This document shows positions 25,663 to 59,743 of a stretch of DNA of 64,000 bases, in pieces. Source of the stretch: Nicotiana tabacum (Eukaryota; Streptophyta; Magnoliopsida; Solanales; Solanaceae). A program made the translations under genes and the position numbers. Below the pieces are notes generated by a model, which worked only from the letters and a program-made list of their open reading frames with translations, made no database searches and had not been told where the DNA came from. How positions within the stretch are numbered: position 1 is the first letter of the stretch; each line of letters starts with the position of its first letter. The stretch spans positions 110,615,157 through 110,679,156 of the forward strand of contig NC_134089.1 of assembly GCF_000715075.1 (NCBI RefSeq), written 5' to 3'.

Positions 25663-25667
25663 GGGGA

Positions 25668-27119: not shown

Positions 27120-27164
27120 CCCCAAGGACCTCCAAAACCACCTTCTCCAACTCGCACCATACAG

Positions 27165-34035: not shown

Positions 34036-34039
34036 GCTC

Positions 34040-34057
34040 TGGCGACTCTGCTGGGGA
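34040..34057 (+). other. primer binding site of D
   Basis: TGGCGACTCTGCTGGGGA, four bases inside the 5' LTR. This type of site is seen in Ogre elements. Confidence 0.8.
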
Positions 34058-35270
34058 CCGAACCCAGAATCTCTGGTTCTGGGTTCAGAATTCGAGCTTT
34101 AAATAATTGTTATAATTGGCTTGTTTTATCTGATTTTTTACATGTTTGGGCCTAATGTGCTAAGTGATGCTTTTTACCGCTTTGATATTATCTGAACTGC
34201 ATATAAACTGCTACGAAACCCTTCTCTTCTCATCTTCGGGGATGTGCTCGCTGGTCGAGACTCTCTATTCTGTTAGTGTCATACCTTGAAATAAGAAAGA
34301 GGCTCGGACAAGTTACTAAGTCGGATGACCTTTTGGTTCTCGGTACGTACTCCTCGACTCGAGTTGTCCGCTCGAGTACACAGTCTAGAACAAACACCCA
34401 GGTTCTGAAGATAGAATAACTCAACTTCATGCCAGATCCCTAGTAGGAACGCTTATTTGCATCATGTGCACTTGACTTAGGGGACTCAACACAGGGGTTG
34501 GGTCCGTCTAGGACAAGCAACCTGAAATGGAAAAGACCATCCTGATGGATCCAACTTGTTTTCTGTGCATTTATTTATTCGAACTTACATGCTGACCGGC
34601 TTATGAATCTCGGGAATATCAGAAATTTGAAAAAGAAAAAAAAAATATTACCCATTTTTAGATGCCCAAAAACTGTCGAAACTCTGCCGGAATTTTGAGA
34701 AAATAAAAATAAAATATTTTATGTTTTTAAAATTGTTTGTTTTACTCAAAAAAAAATGCGTGAAAAAGAGTCCTTTATTTTAGTTTGTTTTGTTTTCAAA
34801 AACGGAGAAGAAAAATAGTTTGTTTGTTTGTTTGTTATAAAAGGAATAAAGGAAAAAGAATTTTGTTTTCAAAAATTGCTAGTTTCTCTGCCCGAACTAC
34901 GCAGGTTTGATTCTCACCGGATGTGAGATAGATAGGCAACCCTCATCGGGTTCAACTTCCCCTTTTGCAAAAATAGCCAAAAATGTCAAATTTTAGTTTT
35001 CGTCATAAATAAGTCGGGTGATGCCGTTTTTTTCTTCAAAAAATAGCCGATTGTCCCCAAAAGGGACACCGGAAGGCCGATTTTGCATAAATAGCCACCT
35101 TTGATCATTTTTAAGATTTCGATCGGTTAATCCACATAGCCTTAAAATCTTCGTCTCCGAAGTGCTGAAAGGCCGTGTTTGAAAAATCGGGTCTTTCATT
35201 TTAGTTTGAAAAAAATTGTAGTTTTGTTTTGAATCAAATAAATTTACCTTTTTCTTAATCACCTTAATAA
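34058..35270 (+). other. leader region of D
   Basis: Non-coding, about 1.2 kb between primer site and ORF1. It contains the first copy of the two-hairpin motif (34894-34953) and several A- and T-rich runs. Confidence 0.7.
34894..34953 (+). repeat. two-hairpin motif, copy 1 (D leader)
   Basis: GAACTAC, then stem TCTCAC/GTGAGA (34912-34917 with 34923-34928), linker TAGATAGGC, second stem AACCC/GGGTT (34938-34942 with 34948-34952), then TTC. See the findings for the comparison of six copies. Confidence 0.75.
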
Positions 35271-37166
35271 ATGAGCACAAATGCAAATGAATCTTTCACC
35301 ATACTTAATGAGGTCCCCCTCCAGCTCCACATGTGGTGGAATGATCTGGGAGAAGGCAACAAAGAAATAGTGGCTAGAGCCCTGGGAGGTCTTGTTGGTC
35401 TACTGAATGTCAAGCCAAAGTCGAATGTCATCGAGGCCTTAATATCATTTTGGGACCCGACCCGCAATGTATTTCACTTTGGGGATTTTGAGCTTGCGCC
35501 CACGCTGGAGGAAGTCGCGGGTTATGCAGGTCTGAATGGAAATCTGAGGGGTCAATATTTGCTGTCACCAAGACCGGTATCTCCGCACAAATTTTTGGAT
35601 TTTCTAAACATCAGCCGGAGCGTTCAGAATGATGATTTGTCGGGAGGGTGTTGCACTCTTTAGTTCCTGTATCAGCGTTATGGTAATCCTCGGGGTTTCG
35701 AAGAGCCAAATCTGGGACTAACCCATGCTGGGAACAGAAGTAAATGGGAAACAAGACGAACCTTGGCGTTCATAACGATATTCTTGGGAATTGTGATTTG
35801 TCCACGAGAAGATAAGAAAATAGAGACAGGTCTTGGGGGAATGGTTGATGTTGCAATTAAAAGGCCAGATAACACTATAGTTCCACTGATTTTGTCCGAA
35901 ATTTACCGAGCATTTACTGTTTGCAGGAAAGGAGGACATTTTTTCCAAGGTTGCAATTTATTACTTCAGTTGTGGATGCAAGAACATCTGTGCCACCGGG
36001 CGGGGTACATGAACTATGGGCTGACTGGGTCAAGCTGTATCGTAGAACTTGAAAAGCGAGTAAGGGGTATTGCATTTCCTGAGGGTACCGAAGCTTGGCT
36101 CATACGACTGAGGTCATTGACTGTCGATCAAATTGAATGGGCGTTTGGGTGGTTGCCCGTTACGGAGGTGCTATGTATGTCAGCAGGGGAATGTCATATC
36201 CTTTTAATGGGTGTTTGGAGTATTCAACCGTAAGCTCCCCATCGGGTACTACGCCATCTGGGAAGGTTTCAAGTCATCCCCAAAGATTAAGACTTGAGCA
36301 AGCACGTCATTGAGTTAAGTCCAGGAGCCGCATTCCCGGAAGATAAAATTCGCAAATTATGGAACGAGTGCCGGTTCCTCGGGCCTAAGGCTATGGTCCG
36401 AGATCTGGCTAAAGGTGAGGTGGTCCAGAAGTATAATGCGTGGTTTGGGAAAAGGTTCCAGATTCTCCAAAGGCCCACCAAAAGAGCCCATGTCCAACAA
36501 TTTACTAATGATTCACAAGAGCAATGGGGTTGGTTAGCAAAAGAAGAGAGTTACAAGGCATAAATAGGCAAGCTGAAGCAACAGATTAGAGACCTGGAAT
36601 TTGAAAATAGTCTGCAAGTTGACGCCGATCAGGGAGAAAAGAACAAATTGGCCCAAGAGAATGAAGCGCTAAAAGCCCAAATCCGGCAAATGAGGATAGA
36701 TGCTGACAACCAACAAAGAAGTCGATCGAATGAGCGGTTAATAAAAGGGTTGAAAAAAGAAATCAGTGAGTGCCGGAATGATTTGAAAAAATCTGAGGGT
36801 ACCATAGCACAACTCTAGGCACAATGGGCAAAAAGAACAAAAGAGCGCACACAGTACTTACAACAGGCAAGGAAGGATCATGAAAAGACCATTACCAATC
36901 TAAAAAGGAAGGTGACCACCCTAGAGAATGAGGCAGCTAAACGAGCCAAGGCGTTTGAAACTGAAAGTGAACACTGCTATGATCTAATGGCCTTGATGGA
37001 TGAGGAAATACATCAGTTACAGAAACAACGTCTGCAAGATTCTCGAGTTTTGAAGGCTAAAGGGGATCATATAGAACGCCTACTCCTAGAAAAATACCAA
37101 ACCAGGGACAAAATTTTGACTATTGCTCATGCTATTACCAGAAATGTCGGGTGTATGAAAACATGA
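35271..37166 (+). pseudogene. Ogre ORF1-like gene of D
   Basis: A single frame of 1896 bp from ATG 35271 with five internal stops (35661, 36231, 36288, 36561, 36816) and no frameshift. The N-terminal ~420 codons look like the ORF1 protein that Ogre elements carry before gag (motifs NVKPKSNVIEALISFWDP, FGDFELAPTLEEVAGYAGL, TLAFITIFLGIVICP). The last ~210 codons are coiled coil (KLKQQIRDLEFENSL, then LKRKVTTLENEAAKRAKAF). The role of this protein in the family is not known. The stops make this copy inactive unless read through. Confidence 0.75.
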
Positions 37167-37511
37167 CCCGTACTACTTTCTTCTCGGCAGTGATGATATT
37201 TGTGAAGCAAATCATGTGTGAATTGGGACAGCTGGAAAGAGGTCTTACACCTAAGACCGCGGCGAGGCCTAATGATGCCCCGCAAGCACCCAAATTAAAA
37301 ACTTTAATGTATTCGTAGAGTCTGTTGTCTGATAGAGTCCGTTTTTCCTTTCGCATCAAGGTCTGTCAGGAGTTCTTAAGTTTGTACTTGGTTTGGTATC
37401 GAGTCTGTTATTTTCTTTCCAAAAACGTCTAGTTTGTGATAGAATGTTTATTACTGAAAAATCGAAAATTTCCAAAAAATTATCTCTTTGTTTTTCACAC
37501 TTATTTTGTCA

Positions 37512-37573
37512 GAACTACGCACGGTTTGATTCATGCGAGGACATGATACGTAGGCAATCCACATAAGATTCGA
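37512..37573 (+). repeat. two-hairpin motif, copy 2 (between ORF1 and gag of D)
   Basis: GAACTACG, stem TCATG/CATGA (37531-37535 with 37542-37546), linker TACGTAGGC, second stem AATC/GATT (37556-37559 with 37567-37570), then CGACC. Confidence 0.75.
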
Positions 37574-37861
37574 CCACCATCAAAAAGAAATATATATATA
37601 GAAAAGAGAAAAAAGGAGAAAACAAAGAAAATAAAGGATAATAAGGCGTTCAAAAGGAGTACAATTATAAGAAGCCGGAATGACGCACGTAACTGAAGCA
37701 AATGCATGATAGAAAGGGTTAACTGCCTAGTTGCATTGCATCCTCAATGTGTGTTTTCCTATCTGTTAAAAACACTAACGCTAACAGGTTGCTCCCATTT
37801 AGAAAGATAGTTGGTTGTGGTTCTAAAGTAACATTTCCCTACAACACAAAGGCAAAAGACA

Positions 37862-38677
37862 ATGGCAGAGAACAATAGAACTGAGTGGGTTGGTACCAAT
37901 GCCCGAAAACAACTGGTTGAACAGGACTATGGGTTGGTAGAAGAGGTAAAAATGTTGAGACAGCATGTGGTAGACATGTATCGGGCATGGATGACTGGGA
38001 AAGCACCACCCCCGCCACCGCCTAGCTTCCTGAACTCTGTCCTTACCCAAATACCTAACACAATAACGGATGATCCTCCATACTCTCCATATCTACCCAC
38101 TTATGACAGCTTTCCCAGTCACCCGAGTAGCTCCATCACTCGTCGTCCAACTATATTTTTCCAATGCTACTCCCCTCCCCAACGCTACTTCTCTCCACGG
38201 GACTCCCAAAGACATGCTTCACTCTCCAAGTACCCAGCTCCACAAAATGCCCATCCACCCCCACGAGCATACCAGAAACCCCCTAGATCAGGTTTTAGGC
38301 CAAATCAGGCATTTACGAACGAGAGGTTGTTGAAACGAGAAAAGGCTCTCACCCCTATCGGAGAATCTTATGCAAGTCTGTTTGAAAGGTTAAAGCATGC
38401 TGGCCTGATTGAGCCGCTCCCCGGATATACTCCAGATCCACGTGCAAGAAGCTTTGATCCTACTGCACGATGCGCATACCACTCCAATGTCCCAGGGCAT
38501 AGCATTGAGAGTTGTCGTTCGTTGAAAAGGGAAATAGAAAGAATGATTCACGAAGGAGTGATTGCGATCGATGATAGTAATAAAAAGCATATGAACCCTC
38601 TTAGGATATTGACTAAAGCTGAAGATGTTGAAGCGGATAGTGGTCTTGGCAATATTGATGCGAATCTCAGTGGCTAA
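37862..38677 (+). CDS. gag-like protein of D, intact frame, 271 aa
   Basis: Open from ATG 37862 to the stop at 38675. The N-terminus is a short coiled segment (VEEVKMLRQHVVDMYRAWMT) followed by a Pro-rich linker. The middle has LTPIGESYASLFERLKHAGL, typical of Ogre gag proteins before the nucleocapsid part, and then a zinc-knuckle variant CAYHSNVPGHSIESC (C-x2-H-x5-H-x4-C). It is shorter than a full Ogre gag; the capsid core seems to be missing. No protease or pol frame follows. A packaging role is plausible by family; activity is unknown. Confidence 0.6.
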   Translation: MAENNRTEWVGTNARKQLVEQDYGLVEEVKMLRQHVVDMYRAWMTGKAPPPPPPSFLNSVLTQIPNTITDDPPYSPYLPTYDSFPSHPSSSITRRPTIFFQCYSPPQRYFSPRDSQRHASLSKYPAPQNAHPPPRAYQKPPRSGFRPNQAFTNERLLKREKALTPIGESYASLFERLKHAGLIEPLPGYTPDPRARSFDPTARCAYHSNVPGHSIESCRSLKREIERMIHEGVIAIDDSNKKHMNPLRILTKAEDVEADSGLGNIDANLSG

Positions 38678-41400
38678 GATGTCGTGCTTGGTAATTGGGA
38701 AGACGCTCCATTCCTTGGTCAGCCGGAGTAGAGCTTTTGGTGGTTTATTTTGTTGTCATTTATGTTATCTGGGTTACTCTAGGGTTGTGATACGGATATT
38801 GTCTTGTGTCAAACCCTCTTATCCTTCCATTTTGTCATAGCGGTTTGCTTAGTTTTGTCCAGGTTTGTTTCAGGTTTGTTCCAAGATTGTACTCTAGTTG
38901 CTTTACTTGTCTTGTTGTGCGAAACATTTCACCGATTGTCTAATGCAAATTCTGGTCTTTTGTTACCTCCAGTCATCTTCTTTGTTTAGTTCTTTTTTTA
39001 TCCTTTTGTGTTTTCTTTTGTTCAAACGTTGATTCTAGTGACATGACATGCGCGCACAGTTTAGGCCTAATCTTAAAAGTTAATTATAAAGCCATTGGGA
39101 GATGATCGGGACACTTAAGGGAAATAGGAACAACTTGAGATCATTTGAAGCCCGAGTCACGTGAAACTGGGGCAAGTAAAACATAAAGAAAACCATAAAA
39201 GCAAGTCAACCATATTGACAAGGGGGTCATTCATGGTAACGAAAGTGAGAGTGTTGCCCAACGGTGCTTTAAAAATGACAAATGAAAAGGCAAATGTGTG
39301 GATATGATTATCAAAGTCTGGCACAATCAGAAGATGTGGCGAATGTTTAATTGTGTTGTTTGTGCTTGACATGTTTTGAAGATTGGAATGACGAAGGCAT
39401 TTTATTCTTCTATCTAAACACTTTATCCTTCGTTAACCCTTTGAGCATTATTGTTTTTTTTTCATACCCCTCGTTCGGAATCAGTAGCAAAGATTAGAAA
39501 ACACAAGCATGGAAGATAAAGTAAAAGAAAAAGAAAAAGGAAAAGAAAACAACAAAACAACAAAACAACAAAAGAGAAAGGAGAAAGGAGAAATGAGAAA
39601 ACAGAAAGAAAAGAAAAAGAAAAGAAAATAATAAATAAGTGAAAAGGAAAACAAAAAAGGAATTGGGAACTACGTTTGACCTGATTCCTCAAAGAGGATA
39701 CGTAGGCGCTTCACGGATCGGTCATAGTGTAACAAAATAAAAAATCCCCATGCAAGAAACTGGGGCAGAAGTTATGTTTGATGTAAAGAAATATGGTTCC
39801 GAAGGTTGTAAATTTTGAACCCAAATTGATTCGTTTTGAGCCGCTAATACCCTTTCTTTCTAGCCCTATCCAAAATCCCACGTTACGGTCCAAAGAAAGA
39901 CCTTTTGACCAGTCTTCGAAAGATGCCAAGTCATGCGAATGGAAGTCGAGAATAACACTCTGATCCCCGGCAGAAAAGTAATAAAATGAGAGAGTCTTAT
40001 CGGTGAAAACCTTCACGGGCACCTTGATGCGGCTATAAGTTGAGAGAAAAACCAAATGAGAGAGGCTTGATAGTGAAAACCCTTCGGGCACTACAAATCG
40101 AATAAAGATTAAGAATCAGATAGGAAAGCACCAGACGAAGATTGTGAAAGGCGATTAACGACGGAGGATAGGCCACGTGTACATGTCATGGCCAATAGAG
40201 TTGGTATCCACATCTGATAGGTTTTACTTTGTTGTTTTTCTTTTTAGGGGTCATCTCTTTCTTTTGTCTTTTACTCCGTTCCTCTTACCTTTGTCATTTC
40301 CTCTTCTTGAGTCTCTTTGGTCAGAACAAGTGAGAAATGATTTCAAAATTTGCCATCAGCTTTCCAATTATGCAAGACGAGATCTGACTAGTACATCAAA
40401 GTGGTATAAGTCAGGAAAGAACAAGCGCAATGAGCCGGTAATAGTCAACATGCTTTGAGGTTCGTGCAAAATACCCAAGATTGGTCCATATCAATTCATG
40501 GACAATGCAACAAAAGGAGGGCCAGGGTGATTGAACCAATGGTATATTCAATGATAAGATTGACAAAAGGGTGGACCAGTGTCAAGAAGGATATCCCCTG
40601 CATAAATCGAAGGTTATAAGGCCAAGGCTAGTGGAACAATCAAGAAATAACAGCGCGAAGAGCGATAGACATAATTTGGAAATTCATAGGAGACTCAAAG
40701 GTCGGGGAAATGCCAGTTCATGAACAGTACCACAAAGAAGATATTGGGTCCGGACGGGAAAAAGGTATTTCAGTAACACAGACGATGGAGAAAGTGGTTA
40801 ATCAATAAACATGCAAAATCTTCAAGTGAGATCGGCTATCATAGAAAATACATGGGGTCAGATAAGAAGACTGGGAAAATGGTTGAGAGGTTTGTGAATA
40901 AGGAATCATCAAGAAGGTCGGAAGGTATCAGCCAAGTTTCAAGATGGTCAGTCAACGCATAGCATGAAAGAAAAAAAAGGGGGAAACTATCCCCAGCAGG
41001 AGTATCACAACCAACCACCACGTTTTAAACTGACCAAATTCTTTCTTTGATTTGAAATAGGGGCAGAAAATGTTATTGATGATGGAAAGGTATGATCTAA
41101 CGAAAGTTATCAAACTGGGGCAGAAAAATTTTCCTGAAGTCAGGTACCCACTTGAGGAGGAAGGAAGATAACACAAGTTTTAAGGGAGGTAGTCTTTGAA
41201 GGAGGAAGATAACATATTTTGAAAAAAAAACTATTGTTATCCCCAGTAGTTTGCAGAGGAATGAAACACCAGTTTTGAGGAAAGTAGTTTTGAAGAAGGA
41301 AGACAATACAAGTTTTGAGGGAAGCAGTTCTGAAGAAAGATAATTCAAGTTAGAAGGAAAATGGTTCAGGAGGCAAGGGGGAACAATGGCAATACGAATG
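38678..41400 (+). other. non-coding interior of D after gag
   Basis: No RT, RNase H or integrase motif on either strand. It contains a purine-rich low-complexity tract (39505-39665), the third two-hairpin copy (39667-39724), and several AACTGGGGCA boxes (near 39165, 39760, 41115) that also occur in C. Confidence 0.65.
39667..39724 (+). repeat. two-hairpin motif, copy 3 (after gag of D)
   Basis: GAACTACG, stem TCCTC/GAGGA with loop AAA (39686-39690 with 39694-39698), linker TACGTAGGC, then a region with no clear second stem, ending CGGTC. Confidence 0.65.
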
Positions 41401-41404
41401 CAGT

Positions 41405-41935
41405 TCTAAGTTGTTGTTGAAGTTAGGAGCCCGCCTGAAGAGAGGAATGGCGTTTTATTTTCTAAGTTGTTGTTGAAGTCAGGAACCCGCCTGAAGAGAG
41501 GAATGTCGTTTTATTTTCTAAGTTGTTGTTGAAGTCAGGAGCCCGCCTGAAGAGAGGAATGACGTTTTATTTTCGAAGTTGTTGTTGAAGTCAGGAGTCC
41601 GCCTGAAGAGAGGAATGGCGTTTTATTTTGTTATTGAAGTCAGGAGCCCGCCTGAAGAGAGGAATGGTGTTTTATTTTCTAAGTTGTTGTTGAAATCAAG
41701 AGCCTGCCTAAAGAGAGGAATGACGTTTTATTTTGTTGTTGAAGTCAGGAGCCCGCCTGAAGAGAGGAATGGCATTTTATTTTCTAAGTTATTGTTGAAG
41801 TCAGGAGCCCGCCTGAAGAGAGGAATGACGTTTTATTTTCGAAGTCGTTGTTGAAGTCAGGAGCCCGCCTGAAGAGAGGAATGTCGTTTTATTTTGTTGT
41901 TGAAGTCAGGAGCCCGCCTGGAGAATGAAGGTATT
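41405..41935 (+). repeat. 56-bp tandem array in D
   Basis: About ten units of TCTAAGTTGTTGTTGAAGTC, AGGAGCCCGCCTGAAGAGAG, then GAATGGCGTTTTATTT. Starts at 41405, 41461 and 41517 give 56 bp; some units are shorter because TCTAAGTTGTTG is missing. The open frames here are periodicity artefacts. Confidence 0.9.
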
Positions 41936-42319
41936 ATCTTTTTAAGTCACAGTAGAAGTCAGGAGCCCGCCCAGAGAGCGGAGGGTTACAACAAAAACCC
42001 CCAGCATAAACTCAAGTGTAGAAGTCAAAAGAGAGGCAACAATGGTCAAAAAAAGATAATTCGCGTGTCGAAGGAGAAACAATTTGAATTTCACAAGAAA
42101 GAAAAAAACATCAGGGGAAACATAAGCCAACAAGAAAGCAGGGAAACAAGAGAAAGTTTGAAGATCTAGATAAGATTTTGTAATTCCTAAGTTTAGTTTA
42201 GATTCTTGTTTTCTTTTAGCATGGTGTAATAAGGAGGTCAATAAACAGATAACAGCAGCAACAATAGCAGTGACAACAAAACCACAGCTTCATGATAGTC
42301 CCAGCTACCGAAACTTCCC

Positions 42320-42387
42320 GAACTACATTGACCTGATTCCCTTTTAGCCAGGGATATGTAGGAAACCTTTGAAGCAGAGGTTCGGTC
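42320..42387 (+). repeat. two-hairpin motif, copy 4 (before the D polypurine tract)
   Basis: GAACTAC, stem TCCC/GGGA (42338-42341 with 42351-42354), linker TATGTAGGA, second stem AACCT/AGGTT (42364-42368 with 42378-42382), then CGGTC. It ends about 100 nt before the polypurine tract. Confidence 0.75.
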
Positions 42388-42487
42388 AAATCTTTCAAAG
42401 ATGTTTCAAACAGAGTAACCAAACGGGCAAAAATCGCTCATATCCGCTCACTTTATCTTTGCACGAAAACTCTTCGTGTTTCCGGAC

Positions 42488-42500
42488 AAAGAGGGGCAGC
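42488..42500 (+). other. polypurine tract of D
   Basis: AAAGAGGGGCAGC directly before the 3' LTR; identical in element C. Confidence 0.85.
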
Positions 42501-45500
42501 TGTGAGCACGAGATTTTTGCCCTATGAGAACTACTCCCAAAAATTCAAAATAAAATAATTTTCCTTTGTGTGCAATTTGGAGAATTCTCGTGGCATTTTT
42601 TGGATTTTTGTCTATGAATGTTTATTCTATTTTAATTAATAAAAAATACAAAAATATATGTGTTGCATTTGCATTTACAATTTAGGATTAAATAAATAGC
42701 AATTTGTTTCACGAAAATCGAAAAATAATAACGTACTTCGCAATTTTAGGGTTTAATGTCAAATTGTGTGATTATCTTTGTATTTAATTTTGTGTGATAA
42801 TTATTATTAAGGGTTAATTAGTATTTTCTAAGTTAATTTTGAATTTTGGTAATTAGGAATCAAAAAGAAAATAAAAGAAAAAGAAGAAACATGAGAAGAA
42901 GAGTTAAATCGGACTGGGCTAGTTTTAAAAGAAAGGTTCAGGCCCAATGTCACACCCCAACCCAGGCCCAAACCGGCTGGTCTCAGAGACGGCCAAAATG
43001 AAATCGTTATCTGACGCCCAATCTGGCCGTTGATATGACTTGATCCAACGGTCCAGATCACCCCTCCCATAACCCGTTTTGACCCATTCCCCGTACCCGT
43101 TCCTATACCCACCCCGACCCCGTTGCTACTAAACGACCCCGTTTGGCTTAAGGGAATTAATCTGGACCGTGGGTTCCCATCATCCAACGACCCAGATTAA
43201 TCAACTTGTTTTCAATATATCAAAACACCCAAACCCCTTTCACCCGCCTCATTTTCACTCTTTCGTCTCTTTTAGAGACGAACCAAATGAACCAACCAAA
43301 CCCTAGCCTCCCTCATACCCCTTCGCCTGAAAGTCGGCGGCAACGATGCCGGTGACCACGAAATTCACACCCCTGAACCTTCTAACCACCCTCAACACAA
43401 ATCCCTACCCCTTTAACCTCGAATCATCCCGGTTTGTTTCGAATCTTCAATCGAAGATTCGAGAAAAACCCTAAACCTACCCAACCAATCCCAAGTTCAC
43501 ACCCCAGCTCCACCTGACCTCCCTCGTTCCCAAACCACCCCTACTTTGGCTCGAATCTTGCTAGAACTGGTCGAATTTTAAATCTAATGAAGAACCCTAG
43601 AGAGCCAAAACCTGGAACCTGTCCGAGTAAAAGGGAAATTTGAGGTTTTAGCCGACTTTAGCCGAGTGTTCTCAGTCGAGAACACTCGATTAAGGTCCGT
43701 TTTGGCTTCAAAGTTTCAAGAAGAAGTTCAGACTGAAATAGATTGGGTTTGGTCTGAAGTTTCGAGGTATTTCTTTTGTTTGCCTTTTTCTTTTGTTGTT
43801 GTTTTATTTCTGACTGATTAGTTCGTCATTTAGGTCAATTAATCCTCCTCCTCTTTCAGACCTTTTTCTGGTCCAATTTTTCTCATCTTAGTCGATTGGC
43901 ATATGTTGAATCAATTAAATGGTCTCGTCGATTGACCCGTTCATGTCTGTAGTTCAGTTGTTCTCCTCAAGTTATTGGATGTTGTTTTACCTTCTGACCT
44001 TTGTATTTTCAGCCTCAGGGCTCATAGCTAGTATACTTGTTGTTCCAGCATTTTGTTCGAGGTTAATTTAGAGTTGTATTTGTTCCCAATATAGATAGCT
44101 TACTCTCATGCATATGTATGAATCCGTTTCTTGACCTTAATAGTCCAGTCTGACTATTGTCCTGAATCATTGAACCCCCATCTTGGTTGAAATATTGTTG
44201 GATTTTATTTGAGTTCAATTGATGATTAAGTTTAATGATTCGAATCTATTTGTTTGTTCTGTTAAGTTTGTTCTGGAATGAATCTAACCTTGTTGAATTG
44301 TCCTAATTGGAAGTTAGTTTCATGTATCTAATTAGCCAATTGATAGGCTTAAATTGGCTATAGTTGAGGTGTCATACATGTTCAAAGTGATTGGACTAGG
44401 ACAGTAAATCACAGTAATTTCAGGGGTAATTTGGGGTTTTAAAAGTTTGGCAAATGGCCTTGCTAGTAGGTTGTCAGTAAAGTACTTAATTAACCATTAA
44501 TCTAATAAGTTAGTGGGAAACAAAATATAATGGTATGGGGAGTCTTAAAAGGGATTGATTAAAATATGTTGCCCATACTTGCTTGAACATTAAATAAGGA
44601 AAAGACAAGGGATAATGGAAAAAAACATACTCTAGTGGGGTACTAAAGAAGATCATGGGCAGAATTAGTTTGAAAAAATTCTGCCTGAGTGCTCTGGAGA
44701 GCTGGCAAGGTCAGTGTTTGGGTATAAGTGGAGGGACTTAGGACAGAGTTGAAGGGGGATTGAAAAAGCAATCTAAAAAGAGAGAGTTAAAGAGTTCAAA
44801 GTTTGAATACGAAAACAGAGTGTTGAGAGTTTGAGGATCAGTTTTCTAAAAAAAAGCTTTTAAAGCTGAATTCTTCCACACTTTGAAACCTCAAGAGTTT
44901 TGAGAGAGTGCTTTAGACAATCAGCTCACACTGTTATATTGGTTTTAAGAGCAGAAACAGTTGAAATCTCTCTGTTTCTGTTCTGTACTTGGATGTCCAG
45001 GGCACTTGAAGGTATTTGGTGATTTATTTGAGGGTTGCTGGGTATTATCTGATTGCTGAAAGGTGTTATATGACTGTCTAGTCTAATTTCTAGTAGATTC
45101 AGTGTTTTGGTTAAGCTTCTTACTTCTTGTGCATTTTGAGTGTGGTTTGGTCTTGAACTTGGCTCTATTTGTTGTTGTTGGTTGTCAACCTGCTGATGTT
45201 ACTATTATCTCCTGTAGCTGACCTCCTTTCCTTCTTACCCGTATTTCAACTTCCAGGTACACAGCTGTAACTTTGGCATTTGTAAGCTGAAAACATGAAG
45301 TTTGAATATACGCGAAGAGTTGAAATTCCGCTTTGGTTTCTAAATGATTTGTGTATTTAAATTCTTCAGTCACTGGTGATAGGTAGATCCCTGTTAGTAT
45401 GTAGTAAGTGGACTGAAATGGAGTTGTATGAGAGATTTTTTTTAATATAGTTCATACTAAAACATGTTAGCATCTGGTAACTGATTCCCGTAGTTAAAAA

Positions 45501-46983
45501 TGAGCTTGTTGGACTGTTAAATTAATCTGGACTGTGACTGTTAGATTACTGGATTGTTGGATTATGTTCGACTAGTTCTGAATATCAATTTTTATGCCAA
45601 TTGCTAATTCAGGAAAGTACTACATCAATTGAAAGGAAAAGGAAAGTGTAAAAATGTAAATAGTATTGGAATTTGGTTAAAGCATTGACTGTAGGCATTA
45701 GCTATAGTTAGTTTAGTGTGTTTGTTCAGTTTAAACACTTAAAGCTAGAAAATAGCTGGAGTTAGCATTCTATTTTTGGAACCTGTGATATTGTGCTTGC
45801 ATTAATGGCCATTGTTCAAATTGGTAATAGCAGTCATGTAAATGTCGAACTACATGTTAGTATGGCAGTGGCATAAGACGTTGGCTGATCCATTAGTTAA
45901 AAAATAGAGTTGGAGTATCAATTGCATGTTTTGGAAATACAAAGTCATTCTGCGAGTTGCTTACCTGCTTTCAGTGCATTATTAATTCATTTTAATTATA
46001 ATAGGTAATAAATTAGTGAATTGGTATTAAACTAGGGGCTTAGAAACTTCATTCAGGATCGTTTAAGTTAATATGAGCAGTCTGGGCTACACCGTTGCCC
46101 AATTGTATGGATCATTCAAATTTGGTAACAAGCCCACCTCCCTTTAGGCCACTAATATGCTTGCTATCCCAATGCTTTGATCAAAGGCCCCAAAAATTGG
46201 GCATTTTCTTTAACACACAGGTTTTTAAATATAGTAGTTCATGAATTAACTAAGTTTTTTTTTATTATTTAGAGACAATAAAACTAAATAGAAAATCGTA
46301 GTTTACTTTAGGTTTTCCTTTAATAATAAAACGAGACGAGCCTCGCCAAATAAAAAATACAAAGATCGCGGGGTCCTCATTAAATGTATATATTAAAATA
46401 CTCAGATTTCGGGACGGGCTGTTTAGCAAATTTCACGGTTTTCCCCAAAATAATAACGTCCTAGCCACTTTAGGCGCGCTTTTAATAATTTACTTTCTTA
46501 AACTCGGGTGCACATTTATGTAACCCAAATCCAAATCTCAACAGAGTCAAAATGTTTCAATAACCACGGGTGCGTTTATGTAACGTGGTTCAAGATGTGT
46601 TTTCACGACGTTGCAATTCTCGTTAAAAATAATAATAATAAAAGCAGTAAAAGTAAAATTTGCACACAGGTTCAACATGTATAAAAATTAGATAAATAAG
46701 CCGAATATGACAGTTGAGCGACCGTGCTAGAACCACGGAACTCGGGAATGCCTAACACCTTCTCCCGGGTTAACAAAATTCATTATCCGGATTTCTGGTT
46801 CGCGGACTGTAATACAGAGTTATTCTTTTCCTCGTTTCAGGATTAAACCGGTGACTTGGGACACCATAAATTTCCCAAGTGACGACTTTGAATTAAATAA
46901 ACAAATCCCGTTTCGATTGTCCTTTAATTGGAAAAACTCCCTTTACGCCCCCATCCGGGCGCATGTAAAAAGGAAGTGTGACA
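42501..46983 (+). repeat. 3' LTR of D
   Basis: 4483 bp, TGTGAGCACG to GTGTGACA, followed by the GTACC duplication. It contains the same two hairpins and the same 119-codon minus-strand frame as the 5' copy. Confidence 0.9.
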
Positions 46984-46988
46984 GTACC

Positions 46989-49150
46989 TCCATCTCCAAG
47001 ATCCTTGAGGAGATTCTCAAAGGAACTAGGCAGGTCTGTGTACACCTTTGGGTTTTTCTCGCCTGTTTCAGGCCATTTGGTTAGACTTCGAGTAAGATCC
47101 TTCTTATTTTCATCTTAAATTCATGGATTCCTAAGCCTATGATCCCGTCTCTGTTCTACTTTCAAAAACCATAATTTGGGGTCTCCGATCATTTCGGATC
47201 TGTACAGATATGAGACGAATCGAACCTATCTCACCTATTTATATGAAAGTTTTATGGTTTTTCAATTGATTCTCCGTTTTTCCTAAAAACTAGGGTTTAC
47301 TGAAAATTATCTTCTCTAAAAGCTTTCCGATTTTGAATGTTTAATCTTTTGTTCTTACGTGCTTCTGATCGGTTTATGTTGAGTTTGCCTTAACCTAGTC
47401 GATTTACTCTAAAGCCCTAATTTTCCCATATTGTGATTCGATTCTGAGTTCTTCATGTTACTTGTGCAATGTTTCATTCTGTGTTTGATTCACATGCTTC
47501 CCTTAGTCAGATTCAGTGTTTTTGACTTTTTACCCTAGTTCATCTTTATTAGGGTTTCTGGTTCAACTTCTCGATTGATTTCTGTGTGTTTATGAAATTG
47601 TATTTTAGCCTATTTTTCTATTTGTGGAAACCTATATTCTTCCCCCCTTTAATCAGTACTATTTCAAATTTCTGATTTACTGATTTGCTCTGTCAAACTT
47701 ATGTGCTGATTTTTGATTGTTTCCCTTATTTACGACCTTAATTAGTTTTCTTACCTTATGTGATTAGTTGTGATACTTACTGATCCTTCAAGATTGTTTC
47801 ATTAACTGAACTCCTGTCTATTTACCTCTAATTGCTTACTTGATTTTCTTTCCTTAAATGTATCCTGCCATTGATTTGTGTGCAATTGATTTTGTGGCTT
47901 CCTTAATTGTTGAATGATTGATCTCCTTTACCTTATTCTTCTTTGCTCCTAAACACTATATATACTCTCCTCTATTCTCACTTCTAAGACATGAACATTG
48001 GTTCACAAACACATTTTCACTCTAAAAATCCCTCTGTTCTTCTCTGCTACTTGTGATATTCATTAGTCTTGCCAGCTGTAAGCCAAGGCTATATATTGCA
48101 CAACATCTGCTTTACATATTGTGTTCTCTTTCCCTAACCGGTATGTCCCTGATTAAATTTTAGAACCCAAACCCTATATGTTTCATTACTGCCTTAGTTC
48201 ATCAGTTATGAGTTCCATTCTTGTTCCTGTTTACTATCTTGCCCAGCATGCCTAACAATGTCTTGTTCAATATATGATTAGCATGTCTAAATTATACTTG
48301 CATGTCTACTGCTTTATCAAGCATGTCTAGATCTCATCTTGTTCAGTGTGTGATTAGCGTGTCTACACTATGAATACTTGTGTGACATTTGCCTAGCCTG
48401 TTCATTTAAGTTCTTGCCTATTCTACTTTGCTAATGAGATCATGCTAAGTTATCTAGTCTCTCCAGGGTAAGTCTAATTTTTTTCTTGATCCTGTCAAGT
48501 GTTTATGTGTTTACAATATGGCTTTACTGTAATCCTTGCTCTATGTCTCAATCACCTACCTTATAGCTGTAGAACCCTTGAGATTTTTGTGCATCCTGTT
48601 GTTTATGTGCTCCATTATACATTGATGTGTATTCTATGCGTCTATTTGCCAAGTGTTCTGAATCTGGTTGTTCCGTGGTTTGTGTTGGGTGATTTCAAAA
48701 AGTATTTTAATACCTTTCTCAAACATGTTTATTTTCAGAAAACCTTTTCACTCCTAGAGTCACTTCTATCTGTTTTCTTATCAAAAACTTATCAAAACTA
48801 TGTCAAGCACTCTCACTTTACTCTTAAGTCAATAGGTTCTGCCCTCTAGTATGTGTACTGCTTAGAGATCCTGGAGATCTATCTGAACTTTGCATATCAG
48901 GGCTGGCTCTTCCACACTGCACATAATCAGTCTCTATTTGAGAAAAGTCTGAGTATAAGCACTGCCCGAGATCCTTGAGGTCCTTAGGTAAATCTGATAC
49001 ACCTAGACACAAATGTGGCAATGAAATCTTGGGCATTTGAGACTACTAAAGGCCTGATACCTCAGGTTTGCTTTGGGCCTGCATCAGGCTCCCTATAGTT
49101 TAATCTATATCGTATTTATGTAATTTATTCAATCTTGGTCTGAAATAATA
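46989..49150 (+). repeat. 5' LTR of C, second piece, truncated
   Basis: Resumes at TCCATCTCCAAG right after the duplicated GTACC and aligns with 56108 to about 58236 of the 3' LTR. It breaks off inside the LTR at CTGAAATAAT and is joined directly to protease-like pol sequence. The final ~1.5 kb of LTR is absent. The stretch from 48490 is nearly identical to the partner; the part before it differs visibly more. Confidence 0.85.
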
Positions 49151-49152
49151 TG

Positions 49153-52100
49153 GGGAACTGCAAAAGAAGAATCATTAGATGGGCTGAGGAATCTATTTCT
49201 GGAGGATGGGGACATGGACTGTAGTGCAATAATTGAGGATGAGGAGGAGGAAGAAGAAGGCCTCACTATTAAGATTGTAGAGAAGGGAGCTGTTCTCAGG
49301 AACTGGACTGCCACACCATCCCGGGCCCGCCGAGTCCCTGGGTAGCTTGGCAGATTTTATTTCTATAGCCATTCTAGGCATCTAAGATTTTCAGTAATTT
49401 TGTTTTAAATACTCACTTGTTTCAAAATAAATGCTCGATTCATCGAGCCATACTTGTTTGGATGTTTTAAGTCTTAATCAAATGCATTACTCTTTATTAT
49501 TCATTATTATCTTCCACATTTTTCTTTCTACAGCGTTATTATTACTTTTTCTGATGAACCGGTGACTGTGACATGTAATGAGGCAACGCAATATGAGGAT
49601 AGTGATTCGATGAAGAAGATGAGATAGCTGAGGAAGTACTCAGGGAGGTTGAAAACTTTAAGAATAAGCCCAAGTCCAACCTGGACGAAACTGAAGCAAT
49701 AAATTTTGGGGACACTGAGGTCGTCAAGGAGACTCGCATCAACATTCACTTATCGCTGACAGAGAAAAAGGAGTACATTCATTTCTTAACGTAGTATGAG
49801 GATATTTTTGCATGGTCATATGATGACATGACCGATTTGAGCACGTCCATAGTGGTTACAAGTTGCCTACCACTCCCATGTGTCCGTCGGTGAAGCAGAA
49901 ACTTAGAAAATTCAAACCAGATATGAGTCTAAAAATCAAGGAGGAAGTTAGTAAGCAGATCAAAGCCAAAGTCCTCAGGGTGGTTGAGTACCCAACCTGG
50001 TTAGCCAACATTGTGTCAGTTCCGAAGAAAGATGGGAAAGTTAAAGTTTGTGTTGACTACCGAGACTTAAATAGAGCAAGTCCCAAGGATGACTTTCCAA
50101 TGCCAAATATAAACATCCTGATCGACAATTGCGCCAAGCATAAACTCCAATCCTTTGTAGATTGCTTCGCGGGTTATCACCAGATCTGGATGGATGAAGA
50201 AGACGAAGAGAAAACAACTTTTATTACGCCATGGGGGGTATACTACTAAAAGATGATGTCATTTGGTCTAAAAAATGCTGGGGCTACTTAAATGAGAGCC
50301 ATGACAACCATCTTCCATGATATGGTACATAAAGAAATAGAGGTGTATGTGGATGACGTCATTATCAAATCCAAGAGGGTCGCGGATTACATAGCAGACT
50401 TGAGAAGGTTCTTTGACAGGTTAAGAAGGTACAACTTGAAACTGAACCTCGCAAAGTGTGCATTCAGGGTTCCCGCAGGAAAGTTACTGGGATTCATTGT
50501 TAGTCATCGAGGGAGCGAGCTGGACCCATCTAAAGTTAAGGCTATTCAGGAGTTACCGCCTCCTAGGAGCAAAAAAGACGTGATGAGCTTCCTAGGACGT
50601 CTCAACTATATCAGTCGCTTCATAGCACAGTCCACAGTCATATGTGAACCCATTTTCAAGATGTTGAGGAAAGATGCTGAAACAAGCTGGACCAAGGATT
50701 GTCAGAAAGCTTTCGACAAAATCAAGGAGTACCTGTCCACACCACCGGTTTTGGTCTCGCCAGATCTAGGAGGACCTTTGCTACTCTATCTATCTGTATT
50801 AGATGGAGCCTTCAGATGTGTTTTGGGACAATATGACGAGACAGGGAGAAAGGAGCAAGTCATATACTACCTAAGTAAGAAATTCATGCCTTATGAAGCA
50901 CGATACTCTCTGTTGGAACGCATTTGCTGTGCTTTGACCTGGATGGCCCAGAAGTTGAGGCATTACTTTTGTGGCTATACCACATACCTCATATCTAGGA
51001 TGGACCCTTTGAAGTACATATTTCAGAAACTCATGCCAACTGGGAAGTTAGCCAAGTGGCAGATACTGTTGAGTTAGTTCGATATCGTCTACGTAACTCA
51101 AAAAGCAGTCAAAGGATAATCATTGGCAAACCATCTTGCCGAAAATCCTGTGGGAGGAGAATACGAACCCCTAAAAACATATTTTCCTGATGAAGAGGTG
51201 TCATTCGTAGGAAAGGACATTACCGAAGCATACGGCGATTGGAGGATGTTCTTTGATGGAGCTGCAAATTTCAAAGGAGTGGGCATTGGGCGGTTTTGGT
51301 ATCAGAAACAGGCCAACATTATCCGATATCTGCTAAACTCAGATTTTTGTGCACCAACAACATGGCAGAGTATGAAGCCTGCATACTAGGGCTCAGCATG
51401 GCAATCCACATGAATATTTAGGAGCTGCTGGTAATAGGTGATTCAAATTTGCTTGTGCACCAGGTACAAGGAGAGTGGGACACCGAGAATTTCAAGATAT
51501 TACCATATCTACACCATGTGACAGGAATTGAGAAAGAGGTTCACAAAGATAGAGTTTCGGCATGTGCCTAGAATTCAGAATGAGTTTGCCGATGCATTGG
51601 CCACCTTGTCATCTATGATACAACATCTAGACAAGAATTTCATTGATTCCATCCCAGTAAGAATTCATAATCAACCGGCGTATTGTGCCCACGTTGAAGA
51701 AGAAACAGATGGAAAACCTTGGTTCCATGACATCAAAGAGTATTTTGCAAAAGGAGAATATCCGAAGCATGCGAACCACACTCAGAAATGGAAACTTCGG
51801 AGATTTACCAATCACTTTTTCCACAACAGAGGAAACTTGTATAGAAGAACTCCTAATTTGGGATTGATAAGATGTGTTGACGCAAAAGAGGCTTCTAAGC
51901 TACTTGAGGAGATATACATGTTGGGGCCTGTGGCCCACAAATGAATGGTTTTGCCCTGGCCAAGAAGATACTTAGGGCCGGTTCCTTGTGGATGACTATG
52001 GAGACAGATTGCGTCAAGTATATCCGCAAATGCTACCAATGTCAAGTGCATGCCGATATGATGAGGGTACCGCCGAATGAGCTCAATGCAACAAGCTCAC

Positions 52101-52969
52101 CTTGGCCATTTTGCACCTGGGGAATGGATGTCATTGGTCCTATCGAGCCCACTACTTCAAACGGGCACAGGTTTATTCTAGTAGCCATTGATTACTTCAC
52201 AAAATAGGTAGAGGTTGTATCTTACAAAGCTATAACCAAGAAAGTCGTCGCAAACTTTGTCAAAGAACGTATTGTTTGCCAATTTGGAGTCCCTGAGTCC
52301 ATTGTTACTGATAATGCCACCAATCTCAATAGCAATCTGATGAAATCCATGAGTGAGACTTTCAAAATCAAGCATAAGAATTCCACAGCCTATAGACCTC
52401 AGATGAATGGAGTCATAGAAGCCGCCAACAAAAACATCAAGAAGATACTAAGGAAGATGGTAGAAAACCACAAGCAATGACATGGGAAACTACCCTTTGC
52501 TTTGTTGGGATACCGCACTACAGTTCGCACATCAATCGGGGAAACTCCCTACATGCTGGTTTATGGTACCGAAACTGTCATCCCAGCCGAGGTAGAGGTT
52601 CCTTCTTTAAGGATTATACAAGAAGACGATCTCAGCGATACAGAATGGATAAAGAGCCGCTATAAGCAATTGGACCTTATAGATGGAAAAAGGATGAACG
52701 CAATATGTCACGATCAGCTTTACCAGAATAGAATGTCCAGAGCTTTCAACAAAAGGGTCAAACCAAGACAGTATTCACTAGGACAACTGGTACTGAAGAA
52801 GATCTTACCACATCAAGATGAAGCCAAAAAGAAATTCTCTCCCAACTAGCAAGGTCCTTATATGGTTCACAGAGTGCTAACAAGAGGAGCGCTCATACTT
52901 GCAGAAATGGATGGAGAAGTCTGGCCAAAACCAATCAACTCAGACGCTGTCAAGAGATACTATGCTTAG
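49153..52969 (+). pseudogene. Ogre-type pol of C: protease end, RT, dual RNase H, integrase
   Basis: 49153-49341 is the end of the protease region (GLTIKIVEKGAVLRNWTATP). An intron follows, then a linker and RT from about 49860: KIKEEVSKQIKAKVLRVVEY, CVDYRDLNRASPKDDFPMPN, and the intact catalytic VYVDDVIIKSK near 50345. RNase H follows (about 50690-51060), then a second RNase H (FFDGAANFKGVGIG, AEYEACILGLSMAI, GDSNLLVHQVQGEW), a trait of the Tat/Ogre lineage. Integrase has KCYQCQVHADMMRVPP, MDVIGPIEP, IVTDNATNLN and NGVIEAANKNIKKIL, so D, D and E are kept. About ten stops or frame changes (for example 50247, 50289, 51075, 51117, 52204, 52477, 52846) disable it. Confidence 0.85.
49342..49533 (+). 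other. putative retrotransposon intron in the pol of C
   Basis: 192 bp, AT-rich, donor CTGG|GTAGCT and acceptor TTTCTTTCTACAG, located between protease and RT. A spliced intron at this place is a known peculiarity of Ogre elements. The sequence on both sides reads as pol; the inside does not. Confidence 0.65.
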
Positions 52970-52999
52970 ACTATTTATATTTCTTCATATGATGTAATT

Positions 53000-53061
53000 G
53001 AACTACGCTTGACCTGATTCCCGCTTATGAGGGAATATGTAGGAAGCCTTGTGGTTCGGTC
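53000..53061 (+). repeat. two-hairpin motif, copy 5 (after pol of C)
   Basis: GAACTACG, stem ATTCCC/GGGAAT (53017-53022 with 53031-53036), linker ATGTAGGA, second stem AGCC/GGTT (53045-53048 with 53053-53056), then CGGTC. It starts about 30 nt after the end of the integrase frame. Confidence 0.75.
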
Positions 53062-53095
53062 ATATCATAATAAAATTTTTGTTTCACCCAGAATC

Positions 53096-53330
53096 AGAAA
53101 CTGGGGTATAATTTTGAGAAGGACCCTCAAAATTTCGAAGCAAGTCCAACCGGCGCCATTACATGCCAGAAAATTAGAAATTGGTTAAGAAACTGGGGTA
53201 GAATTTTGAGAAGGATTCTCAAAATTCCGAAGAAGGATTAGCGAGTTCGTTGCTCGCAAACAACCGAAGGATCATCCACCAAACTGGGGCAGAATTTTGA
53301 GGAGGACCATCAAAATTCTAACACGAGAAA
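53096..53330 (+). repeat. three 91-bp units, each with a perfect hairpin
   Basis: Each unit has AAACTGGGGYA followed by an inverted repeat: AATTTTGAG/CTCAAAATT (53110-53134), GAATTTTGAG/CTCAAAATTC (53201-53227) and GAATTTTGA/TCAAAATTC (53292-53318). The starts 53110, 53201 and 53292 are 91 bp apart. Confidence 0.8.
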
Positions 53331-53689
53331 GCTGCAATGTCTTTGAAATATGTTACAGTCACTAGTTCATCTAAAATTACTTGATATTTCAATATGTTTC
53401 CAAAATAACTCTATTTTTATCAATAATCGCACATTTTCGAAAAATCTATTTCCGTAATAGCTAGGTGTTACCCAGGGAAACTTAAACAAGGCATCCAGCA
53501 TGAAGAAACAAAGCCAGCAGATGAAGGTACAAACCAACCTCCCCTTACAAAACTTACAATTTTTCTTTGAACGCAGACACATCTGATGTAGCAATAGCAT
53601 TCGCAAATATATACACGCGGCAAAATCACTATCAATCGAGCCACCAAATACCGAATATATCCCCAGCTAAGAAATATTCTACCATTATT

Positions 53690-54560
53690 TGCTATTCCAT
53701 CTGTATAGGACTAAGCCCTGTCCCACACCTTACATGAGGCTAAGCCTTGCCTCCATATTTGCATAAGGCTAAGCACCGCCTTCCATCTGCATAGGACTAA
53801 GCCATGTCCCGTATCTTGCATGAGGTTAAGCTCTGCCTCCATATTTGCATAATGCTAAGCACTGCCTTCCATCTGCATGGGACTAAGCCCTGTCCCACAT
53901 CTTGCATGAGGCTAAGCCCTACCTCCATATTGGCATAAGGCTAAGCACTACCTTCTATTTGCATGGGGCTAATCCCGGTCCCGCATCTTGCATGAGGCTA
54001 AGCACTACCTCCATATTTGCATAAGGCTAAGCACTGCCTTCTATTTGCGTGGGACTAAGCCATGTCCCACATCTTGTATGAGGCTAAGCCCTACCTTCAT
54101 ATTTGCATAATGCTAAGCACTGCCTTCCATCTGCATGGGACTAAGCCCTGTCATGCACCTTGCATGAGGCTAAGCCCTGCATCCATATTTGCATAAGGCT
54201 AAGCACTGCCTTCTATTTGCGTGGGACTAAGCCATGTCCCACATCTTGTATGAGGCTAAGCCCTACCTTCATATTTGCATAAGGCTAAGCACTGCCTTCC
54301 ATTTTCATGGGACTAAGCCCTGTCCCGCATCCTGCATGAGGCTAAGCCATGCCTCCATATTTGCATAAGGCTAAGCACTGCCTTCCATTTGCATGGGACT
54401 AAGCCTTGTCCCGCATCTTGCATAAGGCTAAGCACTGCCTTCCATTTGCATGGGACTAAGCCTTGTCCCAAATCCTGCATGAGGCTAAGCTGCCTCTATA
54501 TGTTCATAAGGCTAAGCATTGGCTTTAATTTTCATGGGACTAAGCCATATACCTCCTTGC
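53690..54560 (+). repeat. 86-bp tandem array with 29+29+28 substructure in C
   Basis: About ten units, each made of three related blocks: GACTAAGCCCTGTCCC.., GGCTAAGCCCTGCCTCC.. and GGCTAAGCACTGCCTTCC.., each ending in a TTGCAT-type box. Period 86 bp (53875, 53961, 54047). It is a small higher-order repeat in the 3' untranslated part of the element. Confidence 0.9.
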
Positions 54561-55159
54561 ATAAATGTTGCTCTATTCCGATACTATCTATTTGCTCTTC
54601 TGTCGGGCTAAGCTATGCCCTCTATTTCGCAAGACTAAGCTTTGTCTTGTCGACATCTTATTATCGCATTTCAAGGGTTAAAATATCGTCAATCTGTCCT
54701 AAGGCTTCATAGTCTAAAGGCATCATCCTCATAACCGGAAGGCACCATGCCATGGCCTGATGATCTCTCAAATTTGCATATCATTATTCAAAGGCGTCAT
54801 GGTTCGGAGGAACCATATTCTTGGCCCGAGAACATCATTTTATGGTCTGCGAATTCCCCACTGAATAATTCATGGCCCAGGATACCATGGTATGAGGACA
54901 TCATCCTTAACCGTCTGAAGACAACTTTCATGGTCCAAAAAGAATCTGCATCATGTTTAAATTTTCGCACAAATACATGTTCATATCATCTCTTTATCTA
55001 CAAGTGACCAGTAAGCAACTACTATCCCAGTAGGAGCAATCTCGCTCCAGTTCCTTTACTATGTCAAACTTGACCGTTCACCATAACCACTCTTTTACCC
55101 ATCCCGAAATCTCGTGTCCGTTCTTGAATGACTTCATCGGCATATTCCGCCGATGGATG
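54561..55159 (+). other. non-coding 3' region of C
   Basis: Contains decaying repeats with the theme CATGG(C/T)C..GA..CATC in 54715-54960 (for example CATGGCCTGATGATC, CATGGTTCGGAGGAACCAT) and no coding sequence. CATGGTTCGGAGGAACCATA includes a palindrome ATGGTTC/GAACCAT. Confidence 0.5.
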
Positions 55160-55228
55160 GAACTACACATGGCCTGATTCTTGTAAAATCAGGGATATGT
55201 AGGCAGCTCAAAGACCAGAGTCCGGCCT
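55160..55228 (+). repeat. two-hairpin motif, copy 6 (before the C polypurine tract)
   Basis: GAACTAC, first stem around 55079+100 to 55195 with wobble pairs (TCTTG with CAGGG), linker ATATGTAGGC, second stem GCTC/GAGT (55206-55209 with 55218-55221), then CCGG. It ends about 78 nt before the polypurine tract. Confidence 0.65.
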
Positions 55229-59738: not shown

Positions 59739-59743
59739 GCAAA

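Follow-up and report, generated by a model that had tools for sequence, protein, structure and literature searches.

The 64,000-nucleotide (nt) stretch of Nicotiana tabacum DNA analysed here (the window) carries, in two Ogre retrotransposons, six copies of a motif that proves to be a compact module of the sense strand, 57-69 nt long and built from four helices that form a nested pseudoknot. Elements of this kind hold up to four copies, which we term M1 in the 5' untranslated region (UTR), M2 in the spacer between the first open reading frame (ORF1) and gag, M3 immediately downstream of pol, and M4 immediately upstream of the polypurine tract and 3' long terminal repeat (LTR). An alignment of 91 distinct copies supports the conclusion that the structure of the motif is selected, P1 being the least tested of its helices. 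What the fold does is a separate matter, on which we offer a tentative proposal below.

All six copies lie on the + strand, where the earlier note on this DNA had placed them. The pattern GAACTACN4-9TGATTC matches six times in the window, against a mean of 0.02 in shuffled sequence. A covariance model built from these copies (R1, with P1, P3 and P4 paired and P2 left unpaired) recovers exactly six copies from the 64 kb at 60.5-72.7 bits, and the next-best match reaches 9.2 bits. The cores are 64-87% identical in pairwise comparison. The 100-nt flanks show 41-65% identity, against a background with a median of 57% and a 95% level of 64%, a level reached by two of the 30 flank comparisons. Between the internal parts of the two host elements, which we call A and B, BLASTN matches only the motif copies and the 3' end.

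The earlier note had described the motif as two hairpins set between fixed flanks. The two hairpins (here P3 and P4) are real, their stem sequences are as written there, and the third copy indeed lacks a clear second stem, for which relatives at the same position have a short GCC/GGC stem (read from the alignment, for example in loci L106 and L125). The overall shape was incomplete in that two further helices, P1 and P2, had been overlooked, and these lie in what had been taken for fixed flanks. In P1 the CTACR that follows GAA pairs with the YGTAG of the former "linker", so that GAACTAC contains P1a and ATRYGTAGG contains P1b. In P2 the four bases upstream of TGAT pair with the last four bases of the motif, the final GGTC of the earlier description. 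The helices follow in the order P1a-P2a-P3-P1b-P4-P2b, and P2 crosses P1, which gives the nested pseudoknot.

Element A holds a full set of four copies. Its M1 (34894..34957; 5' UTR, before ORF1) comprises P1a at 34897-34901, P2a at 34904-34907, TGAT at 34908-34911, P3 at 34912-34928, P1b at 34931-34935, P4 at 34938-34952 and P2b at 34954-34957; here P1 forms only three of its six pairs. M2 (37512..37575; spacer between ORF1 and a gag-like ORF) has P1a at 37515-37519, P2a at 37523-37526, P3 at 37531-37546, P1b at 37549-37553, P4 at 37556-37570 and P2b at 37572-37575. M3 (39667..39723), in a position that lies downstream of pol in relatives that carry it, has P1a at 39670-39674, P2a at 39678-39681, P3 at 39686-39698, P1b at 39701-39705, a P4 region without a clear stem at 39708-39718 and P2b at 39720-39723. 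M4 (42320..42387), 112 nt upstream of the 3' LTR, has P1a at 42323-42327, P2a at 42330-42333, P3 at 42338-42354, P1b at 42357-42361, P4 at 42364-42382 and P2b at 42384-42387. Element B contributes an M3 (53000..53061) that by our reading starts 30 nt past the pol stop codon, with P1a at 53003-53007, P2a at 53011-53014, P3 at 53019-53035, P1b at 53038-53042, P4 at 53045-53056 and P2b at 53058-53061. Its M4 (55160..55227), 93 nt upstream of the 3' LTR, has P1a at 55163-55167, P2a at 55171-55174, P3 at 55179-55195, P1b at 55198-55202, P4 at 55205-55222 and P2b at 55224-55227.

P2 occurs in the six window copies as GACC/GGTC, GGTT/GACC, GGTT/AACT and GGCC/GGCC. All of its cells pair (100%), as do 92.6% of pair cells over the whole fold, a figure that drops to at most 42.3% when the partners are slid by 1-3 columns. 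For early tests of P2 a match from a bacterial metagenome-assembled genome (MAG), L052, was added as a seventh copy. A P2 of at least 4 base pairs (bp) adjoining TGAT is present in 7/7 of these copies, against a mean of 1.9/7 when the downstream parts are shuffled (7/7 in 5e-5 of trials) and against 7/25 distinct chance matches from viral contigs, which served as a natural control. When downstream parts were swapped between the seven copies, the observed sum was reached in 1% of permutations, and 20 of 42 single swaps of P2 halves also reached 4 bp. A nested fold of GAACTAC with the GTGGTTC of the copy at 53000 was considered and dropped; judged by eye, most other copies are unable to form it.

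The motif is abundant in the 3.996-Gb assembly that contains the window. GAACTACN4-9TGATT matches 112,732 times, against 3,017 for a reversed control, and the same pattern with its 3' core matches 86,314 times, against 1. Among the 112,732 matches we sampled 100 places, of which 90 were fetched and 85 contained a model match, including a partial one in L142 and one cut by the locus end (L100:2960). The five fetched loci without a match are L087 and L146, which are cut off, and L141, L147 and L152, which resemble Ty3-type reverse transcriptase (RT) coding sequence; L081, L091, L095 and L101 were left out, their copies being situated in neighbouring loci. Combined with earlier genome loci and the window, and with the bacterial match excluded, the sampled matches gave an alignment (A4) of 100 matches, 91 of them distinct.

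In this alignment 94.3% of 1660 pair cells pair, against at most 38.7% in slid versions, and pairing is high in each helix (P1 95.8%, P2 96.9%, P3 95.5%, P4 89.1%). The earlier note took paired bases that change together as the mark of selected structure, and the larger alignment bears this out: cells changed on both sides number 287, against 92.7 in column shuffles, and the covariation score is 0.438, against 0.222. P2 was absent from the search model, yet it shows double changes at all four of its pairs. In the 85 distinct copies that remain once the training copies are removed, it pairs in 320 of 331 cells and at all four pairs in 73 copies, and it occurs in eight fully Watson-Crick versions. 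The joints between helices are nearly invariant, with GAA before P1, TGAT between P2 and P3 (91/91), TA between P3 and P1b (91/91) and C before P2b (83/91). GAACTAC and TGATT were set by the sampling pattern; the TA and C joints were free to vary. P3 is 3-6 bp long with a variable loop, and some M3 copies have only 3 bp (for example L103).

Tests that allow for shared descent support three of the four helices, more clearly through branch events than through single column pairs, most of which are not significant. On 90 distinct rows (leaving out the partial L142 copy) we computed mutual information with average-product correction and compared it with a null in which substitutions are re-placed on a FastTree tree, our own version of the R-scape idea, with 60 simulations. 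The seven best-covarying column pairs are all pairs of the structure. At an E value below 0.05 the pairs that pass are 68-82 in P4, which no simulation equalled, and 24-52 in P3 (E 0.033). Double changes that keep a pair, counted on the tree built from all columns, number eight in P2 (null mean 0.4, largest 4), six in P3 and four in P4, values unmatched in 300 simulations. The excess in P2, P3 and P4 persists on trees built without the P2 columns or without any paired columns.

Several results qualify this picture. Two simpler counts do not separate the alignment from its shuffles, namely pairs with any double change (12, reached by 104 of 500 shuffles) and further pair types (31, reached by 106 of 500). 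Under the tree null the P2 pair 16-86 has an E value of 0.2 and the remaining pairs are weaker. P1 gains no support on the three trees, with 0, 1 and 2 pair-keeping double changes; only its pair 8-58 varies (GC in 57 copies, AU in 23, GU in 6, other in 5), and 18 changes break the helix. P1 is hard to test because GAACTAC was set by the pattern used for sampling. In most copies the folding energy is unremarkable (z ranges from -3.3 to +0.9 over seven copies), and the nested part of the model averages -4.0 kcal/mol, against -14.4 for the minimum-energy fold, so the case for the structure rests on covariation.

The copies are also ordered along their host elements. Layout was counted over 95 of the 100 places (L087, L141, L147, L152 and the place at 2784500 were left out), and 81 of these fall into 27 same-strand groups, eight of which are complete M1-M4 quartets. 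In most groups the P2 class follows one order, with a GGTT-like copy first, then GGTC or GATC, then GACC or GACT, and finally GACC, AACC or GGCC with an A after ACTAC. The exceptions are three groups that begin with GCATACC copies, two in which the M1-like copy is doubled and two that merge two elements. Some elements hold three copies within 1.5 kb, the M1-like one doubled, as L169 does (at 985, 1802 and 2428). The distance from M2 to M3 is 7,612-7,818 nt in eight groups. One pol-bearing element with this spacing, read in three separate pieces, runs from the primer-binding site through M1, 0.9 kb on, to ORF1 (DUF7745), M2 and a long gag-pro ORF; its 3' part consists of RT, RNase H, a second RNase H and integrase, then M3 at 262 nt past the pol stop. 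A stretch of 2.4 kb that lacks long ORFs separates M3 from M4, and the polypurine tract follows. The elements read and the groups together thus place one copy in the 5' UTR, one in the ORF1-gag spacer and two in the 3' UTR, near each of its ends.

We call the ORF after M2 gag because in L169 it matches Retrotrans_gag and has a short N-terminal peptide in common with the corresponding ORF of L163. The gag-pro ORF of L163 (243-3773) itself has only a weak Pfam match, to G-patch, just below the cut-off. The common peptide, L-A-T/S-H-S/P-Y-x-T-R-S-K-G (L163:243-300), precedes the first gag ATG in L163 and L166 and lies within the gag ORF in L169; gag may have a non-ATG or spliced start.

In the sampled 3 Mb, with the same 95 places, 22 of 23 primer-binding sites have a motif copy on the same strand within 15 kb downstream, and in 18 of the 23 the first copy lies within 2 kb. 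Together with the single control match against 86,314, this speaks against a motif that is equally frequent at random positions, the outcome that the earlier note had named as contrary to its claim. The primer-binding site pattern TGGCGACTCYRCTGGGGA matches 21,613 times in the genome and not at all in the control. The ratio of core matches to these sites is 4.0, in agreement with four copies per element; exact patterns miss diverged motif copies and diverged primer-binding sites alike.

Bacterial genomes gave one match (L052:7819-7900, - strand), from a Bacilli MAG of roe deer jejunum. It forms each of the four helices, its P2 reaching 6 bp or more, and lies beside an apparent ssb gene without a start; it is probably plant food DNA in a chimeric contig. 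Two pattern scans of viral contigs gave 51 and 13 stretches, all of which resemble chance phage matches (the first scan supplied the 25 control matches for P2), and two protein scans of viral contigs found no relative.

In three short quartets (L165, L166 and L167) M1 and M2 are 0.75-1.06 kb apart and M2 and M3 2.0-3.2 kb, which leaves too little room for ORF1 and pol; the M4 of L166 lies outside the fetched piece and is represented by L108. No ORF of at least 110 amino acids (aa) lies between their M1 and M2. In the strict sets P2 is paired in 40 of 40 cells of the short quartets (12 rows, 10 distinct) and in 96 of 96 cells of pol-bearing elements (26 rows, 24 distinct). A looser sorting, in which some short elements are known only by their M1-M2 or M2-M4 spacing, gives 28 and 27 distinct rows, and P2 pairs in 107 of 108 cells in each. 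Two other short elements (L138 and L135, with M2 and M4 5.7 kb apart) show a matched change in the P2 of M4, GGCC/GGTC against GGCT/AGTC, which speaks against persistence by descent. The retention of four folds by derivatives too short for ORF1 and pol argues for a cis role on the RNA.

From these patterns we tentatively propose, at a little short of an even chance, that the fold marks the full-length RNA in cis as a multivalent signal, acting in packaging or export and read by a protein. A candidate reader, most simply the element's Gag or else a host export factor, would recognise the fold at several sites, and through it an RNA, autonomous or not, would be exported or packaged for reverse transcription. 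Restriction of the copies to non-coding parts would follow from the lack of room for the fold in coding sequence. Precedents exist in the Ty1 5' pseudoknot and the internal RNA signals of barley BARE/LARD, which are cis signals of LTR elements and are kept by non-autonomous ones. The MTE and RTE export elements of mouse MusD and IAP are likewise structured cis elements of LTR retrotransposons, and the MTE contains a pseudoknot (PMC12786077); we liken them to the motif by description only. They differ in that the portion of that account available to us mentions no repeated copies along one element. A topic search of the openly licensed literature, so far as its text was accessible, found no cis signal of Ogre.

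Other observations weigh against this proposal. The spacing between copies varies widely, two of the four copies sit in the 3' UTR, and some P3 stems have only 3 bp. The three short quartets still have one gag-like ORF after M2, of 238-510 aa (that of L167, the one scanned, has no Pfam match), and within a given position their P2 changes little, the double changes falling between positions. Short derivatives may therefore keep their copies by descent. Packaging and export, moreover, are not separated by the present results.

The main rival reading, possible if less probable, is that the fold instead controls the expression or decay of a polycistronic RNA, by blocking a 5'-3' exonuclease in the manner of exonuclease-resistant RNAs (xrRNAs), by internal initiation, or by shielding the RNA from nonsense-mediated decay after a stop codon, so that ORF1 and gag-pol are both used. 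The positions fit in part: M1 ends about 315 nt upstream of ORF1 in two elements read, M2 ends 202-363 nt upstream of the first gag ATG in six elements, and M2 and M3 begin 30-262 nt past a stop codon (window, L162-L163). The tract after M2 is also purine-rich, with a mean of 0.72 against 0.47-0.57 for the other classes. As described in the accounts we drew on, the xrRNAs of flaviviruses and of plant Tombusviridae and Luteoviridae are, like the motif, small, pseudoknotted and located in UTRs or intergenic regions, some with little sequence conservation; those of plant viruses are pseudoknots, many of them intergenic (PMC6299227). BARE RNA destined for packaging is reported to be uncapped (PMC3735527) and might need protection. 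In flaviviral xrRNAs the apical loop pairs with a downstream segment (PMC5760640), whereas the supported long-range helix of the motif, P2, begins before the hairpin P3, with P2a outside an apical loop. Difficulties for the rival are that M1 is kept in derivatives without room for ORF1, that in six elements M2 and the first gag ATG are separated by a stretch with three to eight further ATGs, an unfavourable arrangement for ribosomes that scan from a new 5' end, and that M4 has no ORF downstream. We favour a cis signal on the genomic RNA over expression of the next ORF, the function itself being inferred.

A bolder version, which we consider unlikely, would place the motif among active RNA devices, in a class of its own. 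As a pseudoknot it would cut Ogre RNA, or halt an exonuclease, where one coding unit borders on the next, so that several mRNAs arise from one transcript and a protected fraction is packaged. With more than 80,000 genome matches in one plant, such a device would be extraordinarily abundant for an RNA of its kind.

Self-cleavage at each copy, by a ribozyme of the hepatitis delta virus (HDV) type or of a new class, is improbable. The HDV ribozyme has the same helix order as the motif and a P3 of 3 bp, as some M3 copies do, and the topology is HDV-like in that P2 crosses P1; covariation backs P2, P3 and P4, and P1 is backed by complementarity and one varying pair. The core of HDV-like ribozymes consists of a 3-bp P3 with a conserved L3, a P1.1 and a J4/2 with the catalytic C and A, and these ribozymes cut just upstream of P1 and need nothing upstream. 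The C just before P2b in 83 of 91 copies also speaks for this reading. The motif, in contrast, combines a P3 of varying length and variable loop, a TGAT that separates P2 from P3, a one-base J4/2 and a GAA conserved upstream of P1. Four cuts would also destroy the genome RNA that must be copied. The HDV-like ribozymes of R2, L1Tc and CPEB3, a type also treated in PMC4035085, resemble the motif in their nested double pseudoknot, size of about 60 nt and presence in retroelements; six nucleotides are invariant among such ribozymes (PMC8256844). Compared with them, the motif has other joints and other conserved bases, occurs in up to four internal copies and lacks an Rfam match: the window gave none that reached gathering score, and 20 loci gave none up to an E value of 5. 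Below gathering score L052 yields a single unlikely match, and so does part of the window.

Still less probable is a feature of the DNA or mere descent, with inverted repeats or protein sites copied along and the RNA structure without a role. Shared descent among copies at one position inflates raw covariation counts; only two column pairs pass an E value of 0.05 under the tree null, and P2 halves cross-pair readily among the first seven copies. Yet a P2 that crosses P1 is impossible in a DNA cruciform, pair-keeping double changes of P2, P3 and P4 beat all 300 simulations on three trees, and the copies keep to the strand of the primer-binding site. The least probable explanation is a signal for frameshifting, splicing or other local processing: Ogre elements splice out an intron that separates gag-pro from RT (PMC6317226), but in the one element read for this gap the first ORF ends at L163:3773, the RT ORF starts at 3858 and the nearest copies lie outside.

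No description of the motif was found in Rfam or in the accessible part of the openly licensed literature, searched by motif letters and by topic, and ARAGORN (bacterial code) found no tRNA-like gene. The 86,314 core matches in a single genome make this a very common structured motif, and it can serve as a structural marker for finding Ogre elements and their derivatives. Its presence at four set places, also in derivatives, provides a defined 65-nt target for work on binding, decay and mobilisation, and bears on how giant multi-ORF plant retrotransposons express, export and package one RNA.

The two host elements suspected in the earlier note are recovered by self-BLAST of the window, which shows A inserted into the 5' LTR of B, both on the + strand. 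The LTRs of A lie at 29545..34036 (5') and 42500..46984 (3'), 97.7% identical. Sequence inspection places the start of its internal region, with the primer-binding site TGGCGACTCTGCTGGGGA, at 34037..34070; the site is also present in L162 and presumably matches tRNA-Arg, as in Ogre. An ORF1 remnant of A, with DUF7745 split over two frames (Pfam), spans 35271..36230. Its gag-like ORF (37832..38674, first ATG 37862) has no Pfam match and is named from its place and look, and Pfam found no RT or integrase in ten ORFs of A. The 5' LTR of B, split by A, covers 28756-29545 and 46984..49149, its 3' LTR 55321..58237, and RT, RNase H and integrase remnants (Pfam) 49827..52846; upstream of these pol remnants B has no ORF of ORF1 or gag size. 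Among named proteins, those that score best against the RT of B come from Nicotiana. All six copies lie outside the coding blocks identified by Pfam or ORFs, as the earlier note had it.

The assignment to Ogre draws on further traits. A second RNase H is present in L163 as RVT_3 between RT_RNaseH and rve, and in B RVT_3 falls just below the cut-off. The extra ORF before gag has DUF7745 and a sub-threshold plant mobile domain match both in the window (35271-36230) and in L162; PMC6317226 gives this domain in 57% of Ogre.

The B insertion is flanked by ORFs that by look resemble gag-pol of another element (25554-28755 and 58238-60835), in which the covariance model finds no motif copy. Between M3 and M4 both elements carry tandem repeats, of 86 bp at 53609-54564 in B and of about 56 bp at 41348-41982 in A. 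After M3, both also have a CCC...GAAACTGGGG stretch (39723-39770 and 53061-53115), which could form a hairpin or serve as an internal polypurine tract.

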